From Phorcus lineatus (taxonomy: Eukaryota; Mollusca; Gastropoda; Trochida; Trochidae): a stretch of 64,000 nucleotides of DNA. The translations under genes were made by a program, and so were the position numbers. This document shows, piece by piece, positions 2,682 through 62,789 of this stretch (position 1 is the first letter of the stretch; the number at the start of each line of letters is the position of its first letter). The notes beneath the pieces were generated by a model. It made no database searches and was not told where the DNA came from. It saw only the letters and a list, made by a program, of their open reading frames with translations. Location: NCBI GenBank assembly GCA_921293015.1, contig OV121084.1:25110946-25174945 (forward strand). The letters are read 5' to 3'.

Positions 2682-4697
2682 ACGGCAGACGCCCTGACGT
2701 CCTGGCCCCCCTTCCTCTCTGGAGTTGTCATCGGGTTGCTGCAGATACCGCTCGTCATCTTCCTTCACGATACACTCGGTAACGTCTCTTCACTCCTACA
2801 GCCAACGCCAAAATGGTTTTGAAATTATGCTGTTTGTTTTTAATTATGTTCAATTAGTTACAATATGAAGTTTTTAAGTGATGGCCGATTTTGATCATCC
2901 CGAATGATGATGACCCAATTACATGCCAAGAGAGAATGACCTAATATCCTTTGATCCAACCCCTATTCCCTCTCTTCCAGTGTTTATCGTCAGAGCATTT
3001 CAGGTTGCTTCACTGTATTTTTAGTTATGTAAAGTGTTAGTTAGTAAAAGTGTAATTGTTCTGAAAACCTTAAAAGTTGTAATCCTAGCAAGATTACCCG
3101 TAAGCCTACAGTGTACATGTATAGTATAGTGCACTGTCATGCTGTTGTTCAACAGGAAATCAGTCAGCTTTATTTTGAAGTTTCTATTTCCATCTGATGA
3201 AAGATTTTATCAATTTAATGTCCATGCCCAACAGAATATTATCTAATATGTTGTTATTAAATTTTTAAAAAATGGGAGTTCCCATATTTTGATATCTGTA
3301 ACGTCATAAATAAAAACTTTGCAAAATGACTGAAGTGAAAGCAAATTGTATGTAAAGTACTGTTTTCGTTTGGCAAATACCACAACAGCATTTGATTTGT
3401 AACATTCCTGTAAGACACTTCCTCATGTAGTAATTTGTGTGTATCTGCATCAGGGGGAAGCAGTGGGTACTGTACGGTGATGTCACAGGCGCTGGGAAGG
3501 AAGATTCAGTACCTAGCCAAGTTCAGATCTGGGCTTGCAAACTGGTGGCAGGTATTTTGGCCTTGATTCAGAAAATTACATATTATCAGTGGGATCTTAA
3601 TGAGGGGACACGACAAAAGAGATCACAAAGCTTTATAACACCAGATTAATAGTAGATATAACGTTGCCCTCTTGATGTAATTGGCTTAACATCTTAAAAT
3701 TTGTCATTTCATAATATGCTTTTCTAGGGAAGTTTACTGGTGTGTAATTTTGGTTGATTAGTCAGAGCTGTTCTATTACCAGTGTACTAAAGATAAGCCC
3801 TTCAGAAATGTTTTGTCATATATTGGAGTTGAATAAAAAAACAACATACATATATATATATATATATATTTTATTTTCATTTTGAATCTAAATATTTATT
3901 TTGGGAAATGACAATAGATGTACAAGGGCTATATTCAGGGTTATATATATATTCCAGAATTATTATCTTTGTATATGAAAGTAACAATACCATATTGTTA
4001 ATATCTGTATTGTATTGCCTTATGTATATTTGCAGGTTTTGTTCATGGCTTCAGCCATTGGAGGAGCATACTTGGCATCGTCCAATCAGATTTCTCCACC
4101 AGGTGTCAGTGCGAGTGCAGGATTCCTTGGTGGCTTAGCCATGGTGTTTGGGGCTCGACTAGCTGCAGGTTGTACAAGGTAACTAACACTCTCTTTTATT
4201 CTTAAGGAATATATTATACAGTAATGGAATCTTTTCTTAAATAGATAAATCTCTAAATTTTATTTTAACCTATTTGATTCTACATCAGCTGTTAGTTGTT
4301 ATATTCTAGACAGAAAGTTAAGAATTCATTAAGGATTCATTATCGATTCAAATGATATCTAGTATTAAATATTTAGATGATCCCTAACTTTTTTTGTTCA
4401 GTATACTTTGCGACTTAAACCTTGAGTTAATTGTTCATGTGTTTGCAAAAATTCATCTGAGGCTTTTTAAATTTTATTTCCCATCTGTAGTTGTTGAAAT
4501 ATGAAGCCGCAACAATAATTTGGTTTTGATTATGATTTCTAAATGGATTCATCGAAATTATAACTTAATCTGATCAATGTTTCAGTGGACATGGTTTATC
4601 TGGTATGGGACTTCTCTCTCTCCACTCTCTGGCCTGTGTTCCAGCCATGTTCGCCGGTGGAATGCTCACAAAAGTGGTCCTAGATGCGATGTCATAG
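2682..4697 (+). CDS. YeeE/YedE-family sulphur-compound transporter, C-terminal half (partial)
   Basis: Four exons in continuous phase encode the end of a polytopic membrane protein: 2682-2778, 3454-3551, 4036-4178 and 4586-4697 (stop TAG). The first gives a hydrophobic helix ending HDTLG. It joins across the intron to GGSSGY, making the family's DTLGGSS-type loop. The second ends ANWWQ. The fourth junction creates AGCTSGHGLSG, the conserved Cys-containing motif of sulphur transport (YeeE/YedE, TsuA-like) proteins, in which that cysteine handles thiosulfate in characterised bacterial members. About 149 residues are seen, whereas the family usually has two similar halves, so the N-terminal half should lie upstream, probably outside the window. 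The substrate in this animal is inferred, not shown. An AATAAA follows only 10 bp after the stop. Confidence 0.87.
3841..3872. repeat. (TA)n microsatellite in a transporter intron
   Basis: A short run of alternating TA lies between the second and third recognised exons of the YeeE/YedE-type gene. It is simple sequence with no further role visible. Confidence 0.9.
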
Positions 4698-6157: not shown

Positions 6158-6515
6158 TAGAGAATACTAAACGACGTCCCGTTTAATAACATATTTATGA
6201 AACGAGTGTGTGGTTTGGTATTTAACGAGCGAAAGCGAGTAAGATACCAATACCATTCACGAGTTTCATAAAAATGTAACTATACAGGACTGAGTTTAGT
6301 GTTTTATTTATTACATTTATTATATCAAAGAAAAATCATGAAAATCGCCGGGATAACCATTGTCGCTGCGCCACAAACATTGTGACGTCATGCTTAACGA
6401 TTGTGACATCATGTGACATCAATCAACACGGATGTTATTACACAATGATTAATAACTTTGTATATTTACTAAACGGCGGTATCTTCAACGGGAGAGTACT
6501 AAATATGGTAATGCA
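6158..6515. mobile_element. Foldback element, copy B (intergenic)
   Basis: The element starts TAGAGAATACTAAACGAC, nearly identical to the start of the copy near 47.55 kb. It then forms a long imperfect hairpin (about 6166-6301) around the centre ACGAGCGAAAGCGAGT (6224-6240). TGACGTCA lies at 6383-6390, followed by two TGACATCA-type variants and a block near 6430-6500 that also resembles the 47.8 kb copy. No protein is encoded. I read it as a non-autonomous inverted-repeat element. Confidence 0.7.
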
Positions 6516-11909: not shown

Positions 11910-18001
<6,092 letters not shown>

Positions 18002-44300: not shown

Positions 44301-46516
44301 TATAAGTTTGATGTGTATATATATATCGTCTGAAACCTGTCTCCTTATATTTGCTTTTCTAATTTCTATCTCCATCTGTCTCTCTATGTGTCACTGTGTT
44401 TGTGTCAGTTTGTATGTGTCTGTATCTCTGTTGTTCATTTTTACCCGCTTGGCTAACTAAATCATGAACGCATCCACTCAAGATCCCCTATACTTGAACT
44501 TACAGGGACTGTCCGACTGTGTAGTCAACACTTTGAGAATTTCTTCCTCTTCCTCTGGGCATAACTTTCCTTCTGGTATGTCGATCCCGTGATCTGAAAT
44601 CAGTGTCAGAACTAGTGTCATTACACAACCATTTCTACTTAAAACTATATGTACAGCTAGTTTTTATCTAAAATCTATTTTCTGTTATCTATTTTCCTTT
44701 TATAGGGTATTTCCAATAGGTCATACGGAACGCCTTTTGTCTGAAGTCTTTATAGAATGGACAATATACACAGCTGATATAAAGACTTATCATCCAAAAC
44801 TCTGTTCCACAGGAGATATCGCTTGTGGAAGATCAAGCGATATCTCCTAGGAGATATCTTTTAGGCAGTAGATTTTGAACAATGCCCCTCTGACGTCAAG
44901 TATATGACATCACAGTTGTTTTACATCATCAAGTAATGACATCACAATGCTATGACGTCATAAACACTACGACGTCACAATGCTATGACATCACCGCACT
45001 TGGAGTCTTAGGGCAGCAGGGTGTTCAGTAATATTCATTTGTCAATCAAATGTAATGAAAAATGATTTTGGATGATAAATAGAATCTCACCCTCGTGTCT
45101 TCTGATATCAAATATATCAACACTCGTTGATAAAAGTAAAATATCCTCGGCAAGCCTCGAATATTTGTAACTTTTATCAACTCGTGTTGATATATTTGAT
45201 ATCAAAAGACACTTGGGTGAGATTCTCTATTTAGCGTGAGAACTATACATGTAAATATACCATTTTTGCATTCATTTTTGTTACTAGATTCAATCATAGT
45301 TGATTGGATATAAATGAGGACGGTATCCTCAATGCAAAGACCCGCACATTTGTAACAAAGGTTAAGTTGGAAAATGACCAAAGGAGGCTCTTTGGGAAGA
45401 GAAGGAAGAAATATATGACGTACAAAAGAAACGAAAACAATTCAAAATGTGTAAGACATTAATATATTTGTAAACAATAGTGTATATCCCACCATCCACC
45501 CACAACTGCTGTTTATTATAACGTTTTGTTTATTTTGGCATTTGGCCTTTGAATAAAGAACTTGAACTTGAAAAAATTAATATCTTAGGCAATGTGTCAA
45601 ATATTCAACCATATGAAAGAAGGTAGCGATTTTATGTGAAAAGTGATGTCAACCACATAAGGAAGATTTTGCATTGTTGAAATTTCCTGCTTTTTCATTT
45701 GCATATTCAAATACGTCGAATAAAGTAGTCGTTACTACATTGATGGATATTCTGTGCAAAGAAGGAAAGTGAAATTTTTTAGGGGGAATTCTATATGAGG
45801 ACAGAAAGTGAAAGGGAAAATGTCGTTAGTTCGTCCGTGCAAACAAAAGTCCTCCATGAGTCGCATAACGCATGTGTGAAACAATACATTTTACCGTATC
45901 AGAAAATTTCTAGAAAATGACAGAATGATTTAAAGGGGCACAGCGTATAAGGTTGGAGTCAAATATGTCAAATTTCATAAAAGGTGTCATTCTATCGACA
46001 AGCAGTGGTTGGTTCGTAAAATCACCGTCTTATGCTTGTCAGCTCAGTATACCGACAATAAACAGGTTAAAGTTGTTTATTTTCGCTCTATATAAACAAC
46101 ATAATAATAATTATGAAACATACTCTTTGTCACTCTAAAGATGAGTGTCTAGAATGCATGATAATGACTCTGAAACAATACAAGACATAACAAACAATTC
46201 TAATCGGAACAAATAGATAAATGTAAGCGAAAATGAGATATTTAGAAAATGAATGGCTAATGCATTTTCTGTATCAACCGCAATATGAATCGTAGAGGCA
46301 TATTAACATAATAATGAAATGATTTATTTCACGAAAATATAACGAATGCACAACAAACATTTTTTTCAAAGTTTTACCTAGATTATACGCATCCTCTTTC
46401 TCGTCCGAACTCGACTGATACTTGAAAAGAGAACATACAATCTCCCCGTCCGACAAGTAGCCGCCTGAAGCACTGGAACTGCTAGAACTTGTAGATGAGT
46501 CGGATTCATTCTCCAT
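41257..46516 (-). CDS. Unrecognised gene, about 253 aa, Ser-rich acidic N-terminus
   Basis: Minus-strand exons 46516-46378, 44593-44504 and 43186-42658 join in phase. A final exon at 41260 would complete an Arg codon and give an immediate TGA, with AATAAA about 75 bp further on. The protein starts MENESDSSTSSSSSSASGGY and has an acidic PEEEEEILKVL. It then has a ~175-residue globular part: YPNNVKEYLEEFQPSIVSSL, PREPFMVLTLTSERGKVTK, QLTRHILQYVNST, RLFESESEFLDRLKILEND and CRLLVKSFLSLVSEKASG. No signal peptide or membrane helix is seen. I do not recognise the family. The ATG at 46516 directly follows a CAG, so an upstream 5' UTR exon is possible. The last exon is an inference; the first three are well supported by phase. 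Confidence 0.62.
41346..41620. repeat. Tandem repeat, ~28-30-bp unit, about nine copies
   Basis: Degenerate copies of TCGAAACTAAATTTGGGAGA followed by AATAG repeat through the segment. It lies in the last intron of the minus-strand gene. Confidence 0.88.
42148..42285. repeat. Dispersed repeat, partner of 9975-10100
   Basis: It shares GAACTAATTATTCT, ATCACTTAC and GCCCGTTTTACAGTT, in order, with the copy at 9975-10100. The class is unknown. Confidence 0.55.
43200..44500. other. Intron of the minus-strand gene
   Basis: Plus-strand open frames at 43437-43871 and 43975-44223 have no recognisable family. A CT-rich, low-complexity stretch covers 44340-44420. I see no further exon. Confidence 0.45.
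44811..44848. repeat. Perfect short hairpin, 15-bp arms, 8-nt loop
   Basis: AGGAGATATCGCTTG at 44811-44825 is exactly complementary to 44834-44848. A partial third copy, AGGAGATATC, follows at 44849. It lies in the first intron of the minus-strand gene, beside the TGACGTCA cluster. Confidence 0.9.
44887..45235. mobile_element. Foldback element, copy E, with six TGACGTCA-like sites
   Basis: TGACGTCA or one-base variants lie at 44891, 44905, 44937, 44953, 44970 and 44986. Beside them 45078-45233 forms a hairpin with arms of about 68 bp. The left end is ATAGAATCTCACCC and the right end GGGTGAGATTCTCTAT. The arms contain TGATATCAAATATATCAACA on both sides. No protein is encoded. Overall plan and ends match the other foldbacks in this window. 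It lies in an intron. Confidence 0.7.
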
Positions 46517-47551: not shown

Positions 47552-47880
47552 AAATAGAGGATACTAAACGACCTTCCATTTAATACTATTTTTATTAAAA
47601 GAGTTAATGATTAAGTATGAAACGAGCGAAAGCGAGTTTGATACCAAATCATTAACGAGTTTAATAAAAATAATATTAAATGGAAGGAAGTTTATTATTC
47701 TGTTTATTCTTGACCTCAGTAATCAAGCATTATTACCGAAAGTGTACTGAACGAAGCATTTCCACGTCGGTGCCAAGATTGTGACGTCACAACCACACAA
47801 TATTATGACGTCATACGGGGAGCGGTATTACACTAGTTTAATATCGCCGTATAAATATTACACTGCGGTGTCTTACACGG
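47552..47880. mobile_element. Foldback element, copy A
   Basis: It opens AAATAGAGGATACTAAACGA. A hairpin with arms of about 57 bp spans 47572-47687 around AACGAGCGAAAGCGAGTTTG. TGACGTCA follows at 47782-47789 and 47806-47813, and then a GCGGTATTAC..CGCCGTATAA block resembling that of the copy at 6.16 kb. No coding capacity is seen. Confidence 0.72.
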
Positions 47881-48885
47881 GCGAGTGATAACCTTTTTTT
47901 CCTTTGAGTAAAAAAATCAATTTGCCTAGTGTAACCGAACTTGGAATGTTCGTATAAAGATTGTCTTGCGATAAGTAACTTTTGTTTTCCTTTTCATCAC
48001 CTCCTAAAAAAAAAACCCTGGCTACAATGTCTAATATTGTTTGTTTATTGATATTCCTCACGTTTGGATCGTATATGTAAACAACACAATCGTAAACTAT
48101 CTTACTGGATATTGAAGGGCTTAAGATAACTATCCTTTTAAAATATTTTAAAAACAGTGGTTCGAGCCCCTGTTTTAATCAAAAGTGACACAAATGAAAT
48201 GTTCGATATTGTAGGATAACGCAAAACAACTGTTTTAAAATAAACAATATATTATATGACAAAAAATAGACTGAGCTATTTCATTACTTTCTATGTCACG
48301 ATGAATAAAACCCAATTGAGTATATTGAAGATAATATGATAAGTATAACCTACCGAAAATCGCGCACGTTGTATTCCGACACATAAAGGTCTTTGTTCTC
48401 AGCCAGTCGAAAGCAGCTAATAACACACATTTTACACAATGGTACAATACCCATACTGCACCAATCATGAACGTTAAATTTTGTCATTATTCTCAGAATC
48501 ATATGATATAAATTTCATTTTCAGATGAGAGAGATTTATCAGTTTAAGATGAAAATGGACGTTAACAAACCTGTTGCTTTGTTGGGGTCGACCATGTGTA
48601 TCGAAAACATGTTTACATCCGTAAAGGGGTTCAATCTATTTTTAGAACGACAGGCAATAGGAGTTATTGCGTCGTCCTGCACAATAAATCTGGACCTTAT
48701 TTAGGCTTTGAGGTATGTATAAACCAAAACAACCAGTCAGTAATATGATTTTGTTAAATGAGATATCTAGACTGTATTCAAGACTAACTACAACTCAATG
48801 CCCAGAGATGATTGTAATTACCGCCCGGTATACAGTACTGAATGACCCCTAAGGACGCGTAGTTTAAACTTATGCACACCCAACA
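47881..48885. other. Gene-free stretch
   Basis: Short frames only. A plus-strand run at about 48570-48700 reads LERQAIGVIASSC, faintly like a receptor N-terminal domain, but it meets a stop and lacks a donor, so I do not call it. Confidence 0.4.
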
Positions 48886-52100: not shown

Positions 52101-52539
52101 TAATATCTTTACTTTTCGATCCAAGCACACTTTCTTGGAATATATTGTAGAATGACTTCTCTTTATATTGAATGGTAATTTTTTAAATACGAGGAGAGCT
52201 AATGAATATAACGAACCAACCATAAATATCCTTGCTTTAGTTGCAAATTTGTTTTTAGATAAAATAACATTACCTTTTCGTCTTGGTCAATTTGATTTGC
52301 GTTAGATTTGTAGGAGTGGAGAGTTTTACCAAGATGTAATTCCAGAAACGTAAGATGAAAGGCACTTTGAATTAAATGTTATGTCTAAGAATTTTTGCCT
52401 AACGAAATGCCTACAATACTAAATGACTGATTATCAAAGAAAAATAAAATGAGGCTTTTTGGCGTATTAGAGATAGATACCGTTTAGATAGTTAACAAAT
52501 GTATTGGATCATACTGCCTACATTAGTACGAATTTGTGT
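49108..52539. other. Long gene-free stretch upstream of the glutamate receptor exons
   Basis: About 3.4 kb with random short frames. The receptor's signal peptide and first N-terminal-domain exons should lie somewhere between here and the preceding region, but I could not identify them. Confidence 0.45.
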
Positions 52540-52720
52540 AATTTTTCTGGTCGAGTCCCTCTCTAGATTCGAACCCGCACCGTCAGATTCAGAACATACT
52601 AGCAGCTTTCCTTGTTGGTTAGCTGCTGGTATGGCCAATGATGGCGTCGTTGCCTGACTCTTACAGTGAGGGTTCGAATCCTGCAAGGGACTCGACCCGA
52701 AAAGTTCCAGAATTGGTACT
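52540..52720. repeat. Inverted pair of tRNA-like (SINE-head) sequences
   Basis: TCGAGTCCCTCTCTAGATTC is followed by GAACCCGCAC on the left, and GTGAGGGTTCGAATCCTGCA by AGGGACTCGA on the right. Each contains a GGTTCGAATC B-box, on opposite strands. An A-box-like TGGCCAATGATGG lies upstream of the right one. I read two tRNA-derived heads facing each other, not functional tRNA genes. Confidence 0.6.
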
Positions 52721-54465: not shown

Positions 54466-57400
54466 GCCAGTTGAACAAGACAGCGCCTCTCCCTTCTACA
54501 GTCGATGAACTTCTTTTCCATCTCGGGTGGAAATCGCTTGTAATTTTTGAAGGTGCATCGAAAGGTACAAGAATATCGACCATTTGAATTCAATAATACA
54601 TTCACTTTTGAACCATTATCTGAAAATTTTTAATGTGGTTTTCAACATTTTGTTTGAGTCACATACGTCAAATGCTATTAATGGTGTTATTTTACCGACT
54701 CGTTTTGGATGTTGTTTAAAATCATAACATTAATGCTAATAAATTAAATCGGTTCGTTAAAGTGACAAAAGCAATGCGTGACGACGGTAAAACAATCTAA
54801 AATAAACGAAACACCGTAGTGAGCAATCTGATAGATGTTCCTGTTTATTTACTGTCATGTAATTAATTTTTTTAGTAAAAATTGTTCGTATTTCTTTGTT
54901 TTATCCAAGAGATCATCTTTAGCGATACCATCAAGGCCCAGAGATACACCACAGACAACGCGGACATGCCATCAGTTCTTCAGGGTATCCACGATACCTT
55001 CTCTCCAGATATCAACATCGTAATCTACGGAACTACAAGTCAAGTACTGCATGTTATCGATCAGGTACCACAAATAATATTTCTTCTCAAGCGGTATGGC
55101 GTTCATACATTTATAAGACGTTTTAAAAAATACATGAAAATAGAGAAATTAGAATATTCATTTTTCAGGGAAATAATGAAATTATCGTATTGAATATCTG
55201 CTTTTTATAGCTAACTCATACCTATTTTAATCAATTGTCTTCTGATAGAGGTCTGATAATTGCAATCAAGGAATAAAATCCTTCAAAAACAAGTTTGAAA
55301 ATTTAAACAAGAAGAGAAATAATATCATTTAGTCTTTTAGATACAAAGTTGAACATTTATATTTCATGTATAGATAAGCAGTTTTTTTCTTACAAGTGTT
55401 GTCGATTGTTAGTTACCAAACTGAGGTTGGTTCGAATCACCAACCCTGTAAAAAAGGATAAGAACATGTATTATGATAGCACTAGTAATCCCATATATAT
55501 TAACGTTACAAGCTACTTGTATGTTTACAGCTTGGACAAACAAGAAAGTATGAGTGTCGCTTTGTTGTTTCAGATTGACATATTTGACTTAAAAACAAAC
55601 GGAAGAACGGACTACAGACATTGGTCCCGTATACTGGTGATAACAAACAATATAACTGAAACGCGTAACGCAAGCATCAGCCATCTTTGTCACGTGACTG
55701 TTGCTATTCCTGGAAAAGATTTTCAGGTAAGCAACTACATCTGTCATTACATCACTACTCATTGTAGTAATTAGTAAATTCCTCTTGCAAACGTCTCAAA
55801 TTTATTTCAAAGAAGTTACTGATTTATATACATATATCATATGCTGAAAACGACGACATTTTGAATACAGAATGAAAAATAAAATGATTAAAATGTCCTG
55901 TTTATACTTGCATTTAAATCAACAGTTCAGTTCCTAATACCACGCCGAACGATATAAGAATTATGATAAAATGTCTGAAATTCACTCGTATTATCATTCT
56001 CTTCCCACAGTCAAGAAAAGAAAATCAAGTCAGAAAATTCTAATGTGACTTCTGTTTGAATGCGGATGCAAAAACATGGGATAGGTATCACTTGCAAAAC
56101 AATCAAACCAGAAGTATTCTCAATGGATGTAGTGTGTCAGATACTATGTGTGGCAAATTTTGGTCATAATTATGGGAATCGTTCCGAAAAGGGCTCGTAT
56201 TAAAAAAAAGGTTAAGTCAGGATTTCATGACTTGAGTTACATTTTTACCTCTGTAGAGAGAGAAAGCATATGATTAACCAATCACATAGCGACCAAGATG
56301 CAGTTCAGAAGTCCGTCGAATTGGCATCAGACCTGGATCTAACGATATCTCATGATCTTTTTATGATATATAGAGGATATTTAATTAAGTTTGTCAAATA
56401 CGATGTTTATCTCATCGAGTGGTGGGGTTGGAGCTGATATTTTCACGGGTGAAAATATCAATTTCAACCCAACCACGAGATGAGATAAACATTGTATTTG
56501 ACAAACTTAATAAAATATTCTATTTTTTATATAAATTCTTTCTAATTTTGTTAAATTTTAGTGTCTATTATGTCTATAAACATTTCTTAACCCTAAAAGT
56601 AGTCCCGGCACAAAGAGGCCCTGGAAGGTTCACCAGCAGTGACGATATATTATATCGCTACTGTCACCAGTGACGATATATTATATCGCTACTGTGACCA
56701 CATACAAGGTTTATTTCACTGATAAATCCCAGTATTTCATTGCTTATTATATAATAAACCTTTATATCTTGTACAATAGTTTAGTTATGATATCAATTCA
56801 AGCATATATATATTTCAGGCAAGTGGTTGTATCAAAACGCTGTATACATTGCACATTCATCCACATGGACGAGTGCTCTCCCTTGTCTCAGGGACGGGTC
56901 CCGGGTCTGTAGAAGACAAAGTGTTCCCAAACATCAAATACGGGTACAACAATAGACACATCGTCGTCGCAACAATAGAGGTAGGCTTGATTGGTAATGA
57001 AAATAAATATGAAAATTGTATATTTAATCGTAGTGAAATATTCCTCATCATTCAGAAAAAAACACTGATAAATTTCAATTTAATCAAGCGTATATGGGAG
57101 CTAGGGCATACCTTATGTTCCTTATGTACCAATTATTTGTACATTTCAGTTTTGAGACTGTACAGTCGGGCATCGATATTTCTATATTCCGCTTTCAATT
57201 TGCATGAAGTCGCGTATCTATGCCACAAAGAGTACTGCACGAGCATTTAATGTACATTTCAACGTTCCGCTCGTGCAGCACGATTTTCTTGCAGCGAGGC
57301 AGGGCTAAAAAAGATCAAACCACCAAAGGGTTTATCCAACCTGTATGTCGGTTCGTCCGCCCGCCCGTAAACATTTCGTTTTCGTAGGTTAACTTAATTA

Positions 57401-60400
57401 AAACGGTCATAAAACATGCCGAAACTTTGCTCGGTAACATGAAAGTGATGCCTTTTGATATTTTCAAATACTGACCTTGTTCCGTCTCTATGGAAACAAG
57501 GTGACTTTTAACTTTTACACGAGTAGCTACAAGGTTCGGAAAGACAACTTTGAATTTGTTGATGTCAAGGAACCGATTTTTGCCAGCATCTATCTATGAG
57601 AGACGTTTGAAAACGGTTTACATAATCGATTCTCTTCTGAATATCTTTGCAGACGTTCCCGTATGTTGTAAAACAGAATATAAGTGGTGATATCTCCTTT
57701 GTTGGATATGCTTTCGATATATGGCGGACAGTAGCAGCAAGATTGAATATCAGGTAGTTATCTCAATTTGATAATCTTTTATGTGTTGGGCTGAGATGAA
57801 AAAATAATGATAACCTTTCACAAAACGTTTTTTCTCCGGGTATCTGTGTAATGAGCATATGATATTCTAAAAAGATTGATATATTCTCATTTCCTAAAAA
57901 ATATGTGTACCCTAAATAGAAGATATTTCGATCTAAAACATCCTCTCCCTGACGGTATATCAGCGATTCATATTTTTTCCAGTGTTCTCTAAGGGAACAT
58001 TCAACGACCAGTTACCATTTTGAAAATGTGGCAATAACCATTACTTAAACGTTTTTTTTCAGTTCATGTAACTATGAATATTTTCTCAAACATTTTTGTT
58101 GCACAGCTATACCATTACTGAAGGGAAAACATGGGGCGTGTATAGAAACGGAAGTTGGAATGGAATAGTTGCTCAGCTCATAAAAAAGGTATTTTATTCC
58201 AAAAGTGTGTAAGCAATATTTTCTAATTTATGGTAATATCTTTCTTGAAGTTCTTTCGGCCCAGCTTGATGTATATCATTTATTGATTTCTCAATTCAGA
58301 TTACCACTCTTAAAGCCAATGGTTAGACTTTTACCACTCTTATTAAGCCAATGGTTAGACTTTTACCACTCTTATTAAAGCCAATGGTTAGACTTTTACC
58401 ACTCTTATTAAAGCCAATGGTTAGACTTTTATCACTCTTATTAAATCCAAAGGTTAGACTTTTACCACTCTTATTAAGCCAATGGTTAGACTTTTACCAC
58501 TCTTAAAGCCAATGGTTAGAATTTTACCACTCTTATTAAAGCCAATGGTTAGACTTTTACCACTCTTATTAAAGCCAATGGTTAGACTTTTGATCAGACC
58601 AGTGGTGAATCCAGAGGGAATGAGGAGGGGATGTTTCAAGGGATTTAAACAACCCACACCCACCTCCTGGTTTTTTTTGCACGTGAAAAGAGTGAACTCC
58701 CTTATCCCCTACCCCTTCATCCCTCGAGGACCTAGCACGGCCACGACATACATGGACAGATGGAGTCAAATGCACGATCATACGTTATATTCCTTCACAG
58801 GAGGTTGACGTGAGTGTTTGTGATCTCACGGTGTTTTACGAGAGGGCTCGAGATGTAGATTTTCTCTTCCCGAGTATAATGGTGGATGCCGGAGATGTTT
58901 TGTACAAGCGTCAGTCAGATGCAACCAACACCTTTCTGTTGCTCCTTCAACCTCTTAGACCGGAAGTGCTTTTTATCTACATGGCAATCTGTTTGGCGAC
59001 TGGAGTTATCTACCTTGCCATGACTCGATATTTGGACCCGGAAAGGAAACCTCCGCAAGGTTTATATGAACAGATCCTGACACTCTGTCACGTTCTCGGT
59101 GATTTTCTCGGAACAACTATTAGACATGGTGAGTTCTGTATTGATGCAGATGTATGTTGTATTAATTCCCATAAAAGGGTTTTTGGCTCAAATGTGAAGA
59201 TTTATTCACAGGCGCCAGACTCTAAATTTACAATATCATGTACGTATATGTAGCTAACATAACATAAACAAGGTCTGACAGAATCGATTCTGCAATAGGA
59301 CCGGACATGCGAACTGGGATATGTCTACGAAGTTTACAGAGGGTAACCGAGCCAGGAAAGCATTTCCGGTCCTATTGCAGACACGACTCTGTCACTAGTG
59401 TCAGACCTTGTTTATGTTATATAGCTACATGTACATATACTTACATGATATTGTAAATTCAGAGTCTTGTGCCTGTGGATGGATAACCTTAGAGATATCA
59501 ATTGACTTTCTTATTGAATTTCTTCTAAAGTTGAAGCATAAATAAAAACAGTTATATTAACTTGATTGCCATTTGAGAATACCTTTCCAAAAATTTTGAT
59601 ATTTGATATGAATTCTACTGGGTCCGAACCTTGGTAGAGTTCGTAATTTTGCGTAATTATTGAACCTTAGCTTCCTTTCGAAGTATGTAGTAAATAGCAA
59701 CCTCCGCTGAGGTTGATATAGAAATGAACGCGCGAGCGGTAGCGAGCGTGTTCATTTTTATATCAACCGAGGGCGGAGGTTGCTATTTGCCTTACACATC
59801 GTGGTTAAGAAATGAAATTATTTTATTAAAAAAATAATTAAGTAGTATATAATGACCGGGTGACGAGCGATTATGGCAAAAGAATTCAAGAGGGTGTTAG
59901 CTCGAGATGAGTTTTTTTTGCTATAACGCGAGGCTAAATATTTGATTCTAATGATTAGAAATTGACATAACCTTACACCTATATATTTTCATTTATATAT
60001 ACATATACATTTATATATATACCAGGGGGATAACAGTACAGACATGACACAACAAAATGAACAGTCCCACCCAGGGATCCTCGTTAGCTCAAATGGTAAA
60101 GGCGTTACTCGCCAGCAGAGAGGTCCCGTGTTCGAATCCCACTTTCGCTAATGTAGAGTCTTATATACTGAATTTGTAAAACTATCAAAATTTTACAAGT
60201 CTAATCGTTTGTGTAGGTTGAACATCTCATAACACCCACCTGCGTATGGTACATAGCCTTCAACTAAAAACAAAGGACATTATAACCGATTTGAATGATA
60301 TGTGATAGTGCCCTAGGGCGATATGGAGAAACAACCGATGATTACGTCATAAGAGGTTGATATGAGAATGAACCAATGTTAAAAGAGTGGGAACATATCA

Positions 60401-62789
60401 CACCTAGGTGTGTAAGTTAAAGATTGCCAACCTTGACAACAGCTTTGAGCAAAAACGTACTCTGAAATTCTGAATGAATTGACAATAAGCTCCTACCTTC
60501 ATTGAAATTACGAATTCGATTATAGGAGTCTTTTTTAATATAATATGATATAATATAATATAATTTAATATTATAAGGCCCTTGATACGTTGTTTTCATT
60601 ACTAGAGTTAAGAACACCGACAACTACCCAATCAGGTCGAGTATTGCTGGTGTCATGGTGGCTGCTGGTCTTGCTTGTCACTACAGCGTACGGCGCCAAC
60701 TTGATTGCGACACTGTCTTCACAGTCCGGACTGTCCAAACTGACCAGTATAGACGAGTTGGTGGACAGTGATTATATAGTTGGAATTGTTGCAAATACGT
60801 CAACGTTTAACCGAATACAGGTGAAAATATTAGATTCTTTGATATGATTATGTTTGTATGACTGCCATCTACTTTTGATCTTGTACAATTAAATCTTATG
60901 AAATTACGATCTAATGACTGCACACCCCAAAACTAAAAATAATGTGCTGCTATTGTTTGTTCATCTTTCAAGTTGATGTCCAAACCGTATTTCATTAAAG
61001 TCTCATTGGCACCTTAGAAACATGTTCATCGGCGGTTTTCCACATGGATGGCGATTTTAAAGAAGAACATCTTTCAATATTACCGATCAAATAGAACAAA
61101 CAAACACAGTCTTATAATTATGAAAAATTTATTTTTATGAAATTAGGTTTGAATTAAATAGTATTGTTTTGGCGTTTGTAATCCGAAGTATTGATGACTC
61201 ACGTTCGCAAATTGCTTTTAAAAAGATTACCGTGAAAGTATTCGGAAGACCTAATATAGACATTTATTTCAGAATTCCGATCAGCCAAAAATAAAGAGGT
61301 TATTCAACAAAATAGATCGTACAAGGCGCGAAGATCCAAGTATCTTAGTGAAGGACATAGGAAGACAGCTGGAGCGTGTGAAACAGGGTGGTTACGCCAT
61401 GGTTATGCAAAGAGCACCAACAGATCGCGCTATGAACGAGGACTGTCATCTGGCAAGGATAGGGGAACATCTCGTGCTCTCTGAAGAACATATTGCAATG
61501 GCCGTTCCCAAACATTCACCGCTCAGGGGCAGTATGCAGAACGTGTAAGTTGGTATAGATGGAGTGTAATGTTATAGCTTGATATGTAGTTCTAGTTGAA
61601 AAACGAAAACCCGATGGTTGAGAGATATCATGTCGGCGATTTTTATTTGAAGTGAAGGTGACCGGAACAAATGCGCAAGGAACATCTAGCCTTTATTTGC
61701 AGGTTGTAAATGATCTTTTTCTATATTCATGATCGATTTTGTACATATCTTTGAGATACAAATATAAACGCCAATTAGAATTTTGAATAAGTGCCATTTA
61801 AACCTGGAGGTCTTACGATGTACTTACACTGTTAAAATTTGAAAATTTCGTACTTAATAAGAAAACTGAAAATAAACTTACGACCATTCAATAAAAAAAG
61901 AGCATTGGGAATGTGTGTTGACCATGTTTATGTAACGCTTTTGGCTTAACCTATACAAAAATAATATACAAATAAATCGAGTAGAAAGCTACTATTTTTT
62001 TCTAATGATGAGTCAGATGTTTTTATTTGTCGTAAATAACAGTCTGATTAGAATCGACCGTGTTTCGAAGAATAAAAGTTTTCAAATAATGACTGTAGCG
62101 GATTCGATCTTGCTCTATCAGGGACTCTCCAAGGTCTGAAAGCAGCCTACTTGCTCGCACGTGCTGACACCAGTTTAGCGCATATAAAACCTAGTTATTA
62201 GCGGACAAATCAAGTCATCCTGTTTAAAATGAAGATAGCGGCGATCAAGTTACTTGCCCCTAGTTACTTATACCGAAGGCTTTTGCCGGAGTCATTGTGA
62301 CCAATTGAGATTGCGTCACAACGTGCAAGCTACGAAGGTGCTTTCAGACCGTTGTGGAGAGGAAAACCCCCAAATAGAGAACATTGTAAGTCGAATCCCG
62401 CTTTATCAACATCTCTTATGACTGAAGAAAAAGTCGTACGAGTTTTAACGCTTATTGTTGAATATATCCCTTACAAAATTATTTTTTAAGATCATGGCGA
62501 ATATATGAAAAATGATAGTTGATCACATGAACAAAGGTGAAATGTGAATTTGAAGCGCACTTAAAATATTTGCAGAATGTACGACCTAAGGGAGAGTGGA
62601 GTGATGGACCTACTATGGAGGAGATGGACACGTGTGCCCGGAAGTGTCCCGTGTCTGGAGAACAAGCACCTTCAGGCCCCCATCTCCCTGTCCCAGGTGT
62701 GGGGGTACTTGCTAATAGTTCTAGCGGGGGCTGGAGGGGCAGCCTTAGTACTCATACTCGAGTGTCTGTGCAGAAGGCGACGGAAGTGA
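54466..62789 (+). CDS. Ionotropic glutamate receptor-like protein, ten 3' exons
   Basis: Exons in continuous phase: 54466-54564, 54910-55064, 55574-55726, 56819-56980, 57653-57753, 58107-58188, 58801-59128, 60606-60820, 61273-61544 and 62576-62789 (TGA). They encode 592 residues. Order: end of the N-terminal domain (DELLFHLGWKSLVI); ligand-binding S1 (GSWNGIVAQLI, VDVSVCDLTVFYERARDVDF); TM1 (VLFIYMAICLATGVIYLAM); pore loop; TM3 (SWWLLVLLVTTAYGANLIAT, cf. SYTANLAA); S2 (GGYAMVMQRAP, DCHLARIG); TM4; and a short RRRRK tail. The S1 arginine that grips the ligand carboxylate is kept. The S2 glutamate that binds the amino group is Gln, and Pro and Thr contacts in S1 are Asp and Phe, so the ligand may not be glutamate. 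The Q/R-site position is Arg. The signal peptide and first exons are not found. Confidence 0.92.
56368..56522. mobile_element. Foldback element, copy D, in a receptor intron
   Basis: ATATAGAGGATATTTAATTA opens an inverted repeat with arms of about 72 bp (56375-56519). It shares AAGTTTGTCAAATAC and GTTTATCTCAT on both sides, and its centre is TTTTCACGGGTGAAAA. It ends AATATTCTATTTTTT. No coding capacity. Its left end matches copies A and B. Confidence 0.75.
56637..56695. repeat. Direct repeat of a palindromic 28-mer
   Basis: CAGTGACGATATATTATATC followed by GCTACTGT occurs at 56637-56664 and again at 56668-56695. Each contains the odd-centred palindrome CGATATATTATATCG. It lies in the intron before the exon at 56819. 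Confidence 0.9.
58301..58591. repeat. Minisatellite, 30-33-bp unit, nine copies
   Basis: Units of the form TTACCACTCTTATTAAAGCC followed by AATGGTTAGACTT repeat nine times, with three length classes (30, 32, 33 bp) set by the TTA/TTATTA/TTATTAA step. It is intronic, between receptor exons 58107-58188 and 58801-59128. Long frames through it on both strands are repeat artefacts. Confidence 0.95.
59203..59484. mobile_element. Foldback element, copy F, in the pore-loop intron
   Basis: The left arm (59203-59313) and right arm (59353-59484) are reverse complements over about 105 bp with small gaps. They share CTGCAATAGGACCGG, AACATAAACAAGGTCTGACA, TTTACAATATCATGTA and a CACAGGC-type end. It starts 75 bp after the exon encoding the pore loop. 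Its ends do not obviously carry AATAGAG, so it may be a separate family. Confidence 0.8.
59692..59788. mobile_element. Foldback element, copy C, in the pore-loop intron
   Basis: AAATAGCAACCTCCGC at the left pairs with GCGGAGGTTGCTATTT at the right, and arms of about 42 bp surround the centre GCGAGCGGTAGCGAGCG. The centre matches the GAGCGAAAGCGAG of copies A and B except for two central bases. Two foldbacks thus lie in one 1.5-kb intron. Confidence 0.8.
60079..60152 (+). repeat. tRNA-like sequence, probably a SINE head or tRNA pseudogene
   Basis: TTAGCTCAAATGGTAAAGGC resembles an A box and D arm, and GTGTTCGAATCCCAC a B box. The acceptor and T stems do not pair well, so it is unlikely to be a working tRNA. 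It lies in the receptor pore-loop intron. Confidence 0.5.

Follow-up and report, generated by a model that had tools for sequence, protein, structure and literature searches.

In the available text of Kojima and Jurka (2011, PMC3212892), animal Cryptons are elements for which no terminal repeats are reported and whose non-autonomous forms are abundant. Their movement is inferred there by analogy with bacterial tyrosine recombinase (YR) elements, and their boundaries are described as hard to define. DIRS1, which also uses a YR, is portrayed in the available parts of PMC3266345 as carrying an internal complementary region, the inverse of its joined ends, with a 3-bp junction and no duplication. 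The attC sites of integrons, as outlined in PMC2727003 and PMC3053210, provide a precedent for structural recognition by an integrase.

The foldback elements considered here lie in a window of 64,000 nucleotides from Phorcus lineatus (contig OV121084.1, positions 25,110,946 to 25,174,945), which is the whole stretch of DNA analysed. They are best explained, with a probability of about 0.78, as non-autonomous elements that are moved by Crypton-type YRs encoded elsewhere. They resemble the CryptonA group, as outlined in PMC3212892, in their link to a YR with a DUF3504-like domain and in the predominance of non-autonomous over autonomous forms. Unlike the animal Cryptons of 2011, with no terminal repeats reported in that text, they have a terminal hairpin, an internal inverted copy of the junction, a 3-bp core, and spaced, opposed CGAG words (CGAG facing CGAG across the palindrome). 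An internal complementary region with a short junction is shared with DIRS1 as described in PMC3266345. Here, however, that region is fused to the terminal hairpin, the non-autonomous forms measure 340–730 bp, and neither RT nor RNase H was found in the YR proteins scanned (from units of 2.3–3.8 kb, in which the scan covered some of the frames). The likeness to attC sites, on the same cited outlines, lies in imperfect palindromes of variable sequence, in a structure conserved at a YR site, and in head-to-tail arrays. In contrast to attC sites, the present elements are eukaryotic, have longer stems, carry opposed CGAG rather than extrahelical bases, and are accompanied by no integration platform that could be seen; their use of a folded strand is proposed. 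Lastly, the HINE elements of PMC7492417, among them Cg_HINE of oysters, are described there as making no duplication and as having a palindrome at one end together with the inverted repeat of the other end, as is the case here. The partner of two of the present families (D and E) is nevertheless a YR element by end homology, and families A, B, and D have no tandem satellite core. Within the literature covered (open-licence titles and abstract openings, plus the available text of PMC3212892), no Crypton terminal hairpin is named, and the internal junction copy and the spacing of opposed CGAG are equally absent.

Five such elements occur in the window, one for each of the families A to E; L-numbers denote loci fetched from the same genome. 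The elements are approximately 340–730 bp long, and their terminal hairpins span 110–170 nt. The family A element extends from 6158 to 6503 on the plus strand, with ends set by 28 fetched copies. Its hairpin (6158–6306, plus) holds opposed CGAG pairs at 6203–6206/6260–6263 and 6226–6229/6236–6239, the internal inverted copy of the head-to-tail junction is at 6302–6316 (plus), and a TGACGTCA site, to which no strand is assigned, lies within the tail at 6383–6390. The family D element is on the minus strand at 44787–45233, with its hairpin at 45078–45233 (minus) and TGACGTCA at 44891 and 44953; two of its opposed CGAG pairs are intact and one has decayed (CAAG opposite CGAG). Family B (47555–47891, plus; hairpin 47555–47703, plus) has TGACGTCA at 47782 and 47806, and one of its opposed CGAG pairs has decayed in the window copy. 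Family C lies at 56371–56757 (plus; hairpin 56371–56525, plus), and relative to the 30-copy consensus its window copy has lost the centre of the hairpin. In the C tail, at 56620–56700, a unit around CAGTGACGATATATTATATCGCTACTG that is itself palindromic is present twice in direct orientation. The family E element runs from 59684 to 60414 (plus), the latter end being approximate, and its hairpin (59687–59800, plus) has the centre CGAG-CGGTAG-CGAG.

A first-pass annotation of this DNA had proposed a dispersed foldback family with shared ends, a shared centre, and arms that differ between copies yet stay complementary. A dispersed, multi-copy set of this kind was indeed found, with the centre common to three copies and the arms complementary in all five. 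The end word TAGAG(A/G)AT is common to four copies, at 6158 (plus), 45233 (minus, reading down), 47555 (plus), and 56371 (plus). The copy that had been placed at 44.89 kb in fact occupies 44787–45233 on the minus strand. The centre GAGCG-N2-AGCGAG recurs, as annotated, in the copies at 6.16, 47.55, and 59.69 kb. The last of these (E) is without the TAGAG end; it opens at 59684 with TATGTAGTAAATAG and finishes near 60414. The annotation also noted TGACGTCA palindromes beside three hairpins, and the copies at 6.16, 44.8–45.2, and 47.55 kb do bear such sites, five of the ten in the window. They are absent from the 56.37 kb copy (C). Such sites are present at the Crypton loci L090, L096, L103, and L104, and no site occurs at L089, L098, L099, or L101. 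The opposed CGAG pairs, the internal junction copy, and the spacing described below go beyond that annotation.

Searches of the genome (958 Mb, 74 contigs) showed that every copy is repetitive. The best 40 candidates were scored out of 2951 for the 6.16 kb copy, 1898 for the 47.55 kb copy, and 652 for the 56.37 kb copy, and the best 40 out of 3129 and 260 first-look candidates for 44.7–45.3 kb and 59.6–59.9 kb, respectively. The best 40 of the 3129 places found with family D, the window copy included, are 97–100% identical to the window copy, and this family looks the youngest of the set.

The plan of the elements was established from aligned copies of families A (n = 28), B (n = 29), and C (n = 30). 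A core, ANA, is followed by a hairpin that opens with TAGAG, then by an internal inverted copy of the head-to-tail junction, and finally by a tail that ends in the junction's other half. The 3' edge of the hairpin is CCTCTA-like and is directly followed by TTTATTA and a few family-specific bases, while the final word of the tail is the inverse of the TTTATTA word (..TAATAA). Consequently, the internal point CCTCTA-TTTATTA is the reverse complement of a junction TAATAAA-TAGAGG, and this junction is found between adjoining elements at L003 and L084. Across the genome, the A/B-type junction pattern has 86 matches at no more than one mismatch, 24 of them exact, against none for a backward control; some of the 86 may be plain host sites. 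In the 5' flank, A occupies position -1 in 66/66 copies and position -3 in 63/66, and T occupies position -4 in 51/66, counting only copies in which both ends match the exact search words (27 of A, 22 of B, and 17 of C, from 28, 30, and 30 loci).

Target-site duplications, which the annotation had suggested looking for, were not seen. At three sites where an element is nested within a B tail (L030, L010, and L025), which concern families B and F5 and not D or E, the host sequence runs on unduplicated on both sides, and the inserts at L010 and L025 occupy the same host position. At L003, three element families (A, G, and H) form a head-to-tail run that is preceded by another TAATAAA end, an arrangement that resembles a cassette array. 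Head-to-tail units are compatible with a circular intermediate, although they do not prove one.

Autonomous partners were sought with YR domains, taking the best 150 of 895 places for PF00589 and the best 150 of 693 for PF12012. Units at L089 (3783 bp) and L090 (3454 bp) are arranged head-to-tail, and in each a long palindrome accompanies the YR reading frame. Pfam identifies DUF3504, QRICH1, and Phage_integrase in L089, L090, and L096, and DUF3504 in L098 and L099; no RT domain was found in these five YR proteins. The L089 unit has one open reading frame of at least 120 aa, and the L090 unit has three, of which the YR frame alone was scanned. Residues R..H..R..Y, which we take to be the YR catalytic set, can be read by eye in L089, L096, and L102, and in L090 the tyrosine stretch follows a non-coding gap. 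A second, shorter palindrome with opposed CGAG lies within the L090 Crypton unit, at 3860, and the tail of E contains a partial palindrome that is related to it and matches L056.

Hairpins with opposed CGAG stand beside five autonomous YR families, namely L089, L090, L101 (adjoining L096), L098/L099, and L104. The L101 hairpin is tied to the L096 gene by position, 2–3 kb apart, and is repeated beside other copies of that gene. In L090 copies at other places, the breakpoint falls at the hairpin's outer edge (query 1 to ~160 or ~157 to 241), and the same holds for copies of L089 (query ~66 to 301 or 1 to ~70). The tandem Crypton at L098/L099 has both ends in common with D. When the window copy of D is compared with L099, only the two ends align, at 95% identity over 178 nt and 91% over 76 nt, and further alignment is confined to the expected inverted self-match of the hairpin. 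Both ends of E likewise align with one L090 unit, at 70% over 155 columns and 69% over 122, and the alignments extend out to the unit's first and penultimate bases. These matches to YR-encoding elements mark D and E as non-autonomous Cryptons, D being a deletion derivative of the L098/L099 element and E having both ends homologous to the L090 element. Judged from sequence, this identity is close to certain. The earlier remark that no named family with this plan was known is not supported; two of the five copies derive from YR-encoding Cryptons.

For the other three families, no autonomous partner with A, B, or C ends was found among L093–L096, L098–L100, L103, and L104, and what these families have is a Crypton-like plan, end word, and internal spacing. 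On the strength of the shared plan, a Crypton-derived identity is likely for A–C, and for the families taken together it is very likely. Five DUF3504 loci (L093, L094, L095, L100, and L103) have no long palindrome in the stretches fetched, which for L100 covers the distance between two neighbouring DUF3504 hits. The hairpin is therefore either not universal or located outside those stretches.

The opposed CGAG words were examined in a sample of 352,755 bp from 102 sequences, which is enriched for foldback families because most of the sequences were fetched with them. Self-symmetric palindromes with 80 or more aligned nt number 186 in this sample and fall into 31 clusters. CGAG stands opposite CGAG in nine clusters and does not in the remaining 22, and no other tetramer opposes itself as often among the cluster representatives (15 pairs, followed by CTAC with four). 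One palindrome with TAAA-TAG ends (L043_297) has no CGAG pair. A shuffle test used the first suitable member of each cluster and dropped six of the 31 clusters (all palindromes above 300 aligned nt); it gave 13 opposed CGAG pairs in 25 clusters, whereas 2000 column shuffles averaged 0.03 pairs and never exceeded 1. Within one strand, CGAG facing CGAG forms two G.A mismatches, flanked by a C-G pair on one side and a G-C pair on the other. In families with mapped ends, it is the strand starting at the cut that carries CGAG, and the opposite strand would have CTCG facing CTCG. DNA fold energies favour the CGAG strand in 11 of 12 hairpins, by 0.8–5.9 kcal/mol, with L014 reversed by 3.3; the difference between strands is small.

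Counted in nucleotides from the cut, the CGAG sites lie at 45 and 68 in A and B, 45 and 75 in C, 45 and 72 in F5, and 14, 45, and 70 in D (as seen in L099). They lie at 14 in G, 46 and 65 in H, 14 and 69 in L089 and L101, and, by eye, 12 and 69 in L014. With related families grouped and ends mapped, 12 of 14 sites fall at 12–14, 44–46, or 68–70 nt from the cut; 20,000 random placements, scored by the same maximised statistic, never attained this value. This test omits one-sided sites (G at 45 and L014 at 44), the degenerate site near 14 in A and B, the 72 site of F5 (the pair being represented by the 75 of C), and L090/E, L104, and L056, which have another geometry or unmapped ends. If the groups are of common ancestry, the spacing is conserved rather than convergent. 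Nor is it rigid, as the last site lies at 75 in C, 72 in F5, and 65 in H, and the 45 site is missing from L089 and L101. The ends of L090 (49) and E (46) are of another geometry and have different spacing.

The complementarity of the arms had been attributed to either conversion between arms or selection for a hairpin, and the pattern of changes narrows this choice. Within families, changes affect one side of the stem 40 times in A, 57 times in B, and 102 times in C, while two-sided changes number 0, 0, and 3, compared with 0.43, 0, and 2.63 expected. Since nearly all of these changes are one-sided, copies, once integrated, simply decay and undergo no conversion. When related families are compared, in a count that takes in broken pairs, two-sided changes are frequent. 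From A to B there are nine two-sided Watson-Crick changes, five one-sided, and one two-sided broken; from L089 to L101, ten, one, and none; and from C to F5, 12 (plus one G-U), eight, and two. The L090 to E comparison is a weak case, in which one-sided (six) and broken (three) changes exceed the compensated ones (three, plus one G-U). Counted in the reverse direction, the two-sided and one-sided changes are 9/8 for B to A, 11/8 for F5 to C, 10/1 for L101 to L089, and 4/10 for E to L090. Pairing is thus maintained in the replicating lineage, and it seems to be the shape of the hairpin rather than its sequence that is conserved at the ends.

These features can be joined in a model of Crypton movement. 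The element would leave either in circular form or as a single strand. In a single strand, both ends could pair with the internal junction copy, so that the one strand would again contain a YR site in double-stranded form. The YR would then recognise the folded shape, made up of the junction and the G.A steps at approximately 14, 45, and 69 nt, and the same shape would also distinguish the two strands. Recombination would take place between the 3-bp ANA core and either an ATAWA-like target or the end of an element already in place, which would produce arrays, and circular junctions would be of the TAATAAATAGAG and GATGATAAATAGAG types, carrying the ANA core. Recognition of the folded strand by the YR stands a little short of an even chance. 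A fuller version can be put forward only tentatively: a eukaryotic YR may read a folded single strand as an integron integrase does with the bottom strand of attC in its folded form, with the CGAG steps (at ~14, 45, and 69 nt) serving both as a ruler independent of sequence and as a marker of the strand, and with passengers assembled into cassette-like arrays.

Several other explanations would account for parts of the same evidence. The YR might act on ordinary duplex ends, in which case the palindrome would be a by-product, for example of an inverted site duplication, and the opposed CGAG words would be protein-binding sites fixed in orientation. YRs usually bind paired duplex sites, according to the available text of PMC3212892, and a polar CGAG binding site would equally leave direct-oriented CGAG inside a palindrome. 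Duplex binding alone has no need, however, of arms that co-vary between families along most of the stem, and this explanation is doubtful, if a serious contender. The hairpin might instead work as RNA, with the G.A steps and GAAA/CUUG-type caps serving folding, export, or escape from small-RNA processing. The stems are very stable, and centres such as CGAAAG and GCTTGC look like stable tetraloops, to which we liken them. Such a role is nevertheless unlikely, given that the hairpin adjoins the cut end in all families with mapped ends, that the spacing is counted from the cut, and that the window has no Rfam match at gathering scores.

The elements could also be read backwards, as non-autonomous Helentron/Helitron2-type elements (HINE). 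The parts then come in the same order, with a 5' word, an inverted copy near the 3' end, a terminal stem-loop, and no duplication; oyster HINE are described in the available text of PMC7492417 as having a subterminal repeat and a 3' palindrome, inserting at TT, and making no duplication. Helitron_like_N matches are also present in the genome (53 scored). D and E, on the other hand, have both ends in common with YR elements, which makes a HINE identity very improbable, although for A–C it is weakened by the plan alone. The Helitron lead, a RepHel search of the genome, was dropped once D and E had matched Cryptons; 20 of the 53 listed Helitron_like_N matches are on contig C25. A MITE of a DDE transposase was also set aside, as the elements are without terminal inverted repeats at both ends and target duplication. 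A DIRS lead was abandoned as well: at the DIRS-like loci L091 (2500–2770) and L092 (2485–2742), very long palindromes follow the YR frame, and these are without opposed CGAG.

If the Crypton reading is correct, hairpin ends may reveal how Cryptons move. The mechanism becomes testable now that the ends are mapped and the 3-bp core, the internal copy of the junction, and the ruler-like hairpin are defined, and opposed CGAG counted from the cut offers a signature by which Crypton passengers can be recognised instead of being classed as unknown foldbacks. Cryptons would also be linked to DIRS1 through a common device; should a YR indeed act on a folded strand, the internal junctions of DIRS1 and the ends of Cryptons would be one and the same device.

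The window contains further features of separate interest. Nested inverted repeats (arms of 49 and 35 nt) lie at 59204–59480, just upstream of element E, and an inverted repeat at 2259–2530 has 83-nt arms that are 93% complementary and 106 nt apart; both are without opposed CGAG. Box words like those of tRNAs occur as an inverted pair at 52534–52712 and again inside element E (~60080–60150). ARAGORN reports no tRNA gene at the box words of 52.5 kb or of element E, and they are possibly pieces of a tRNA-derived SINE. On the minus strand, at 14774–15154, there is a reading frame with a GIY-YIG catalytic domain, which we presume may be part of a Penelope-like element.
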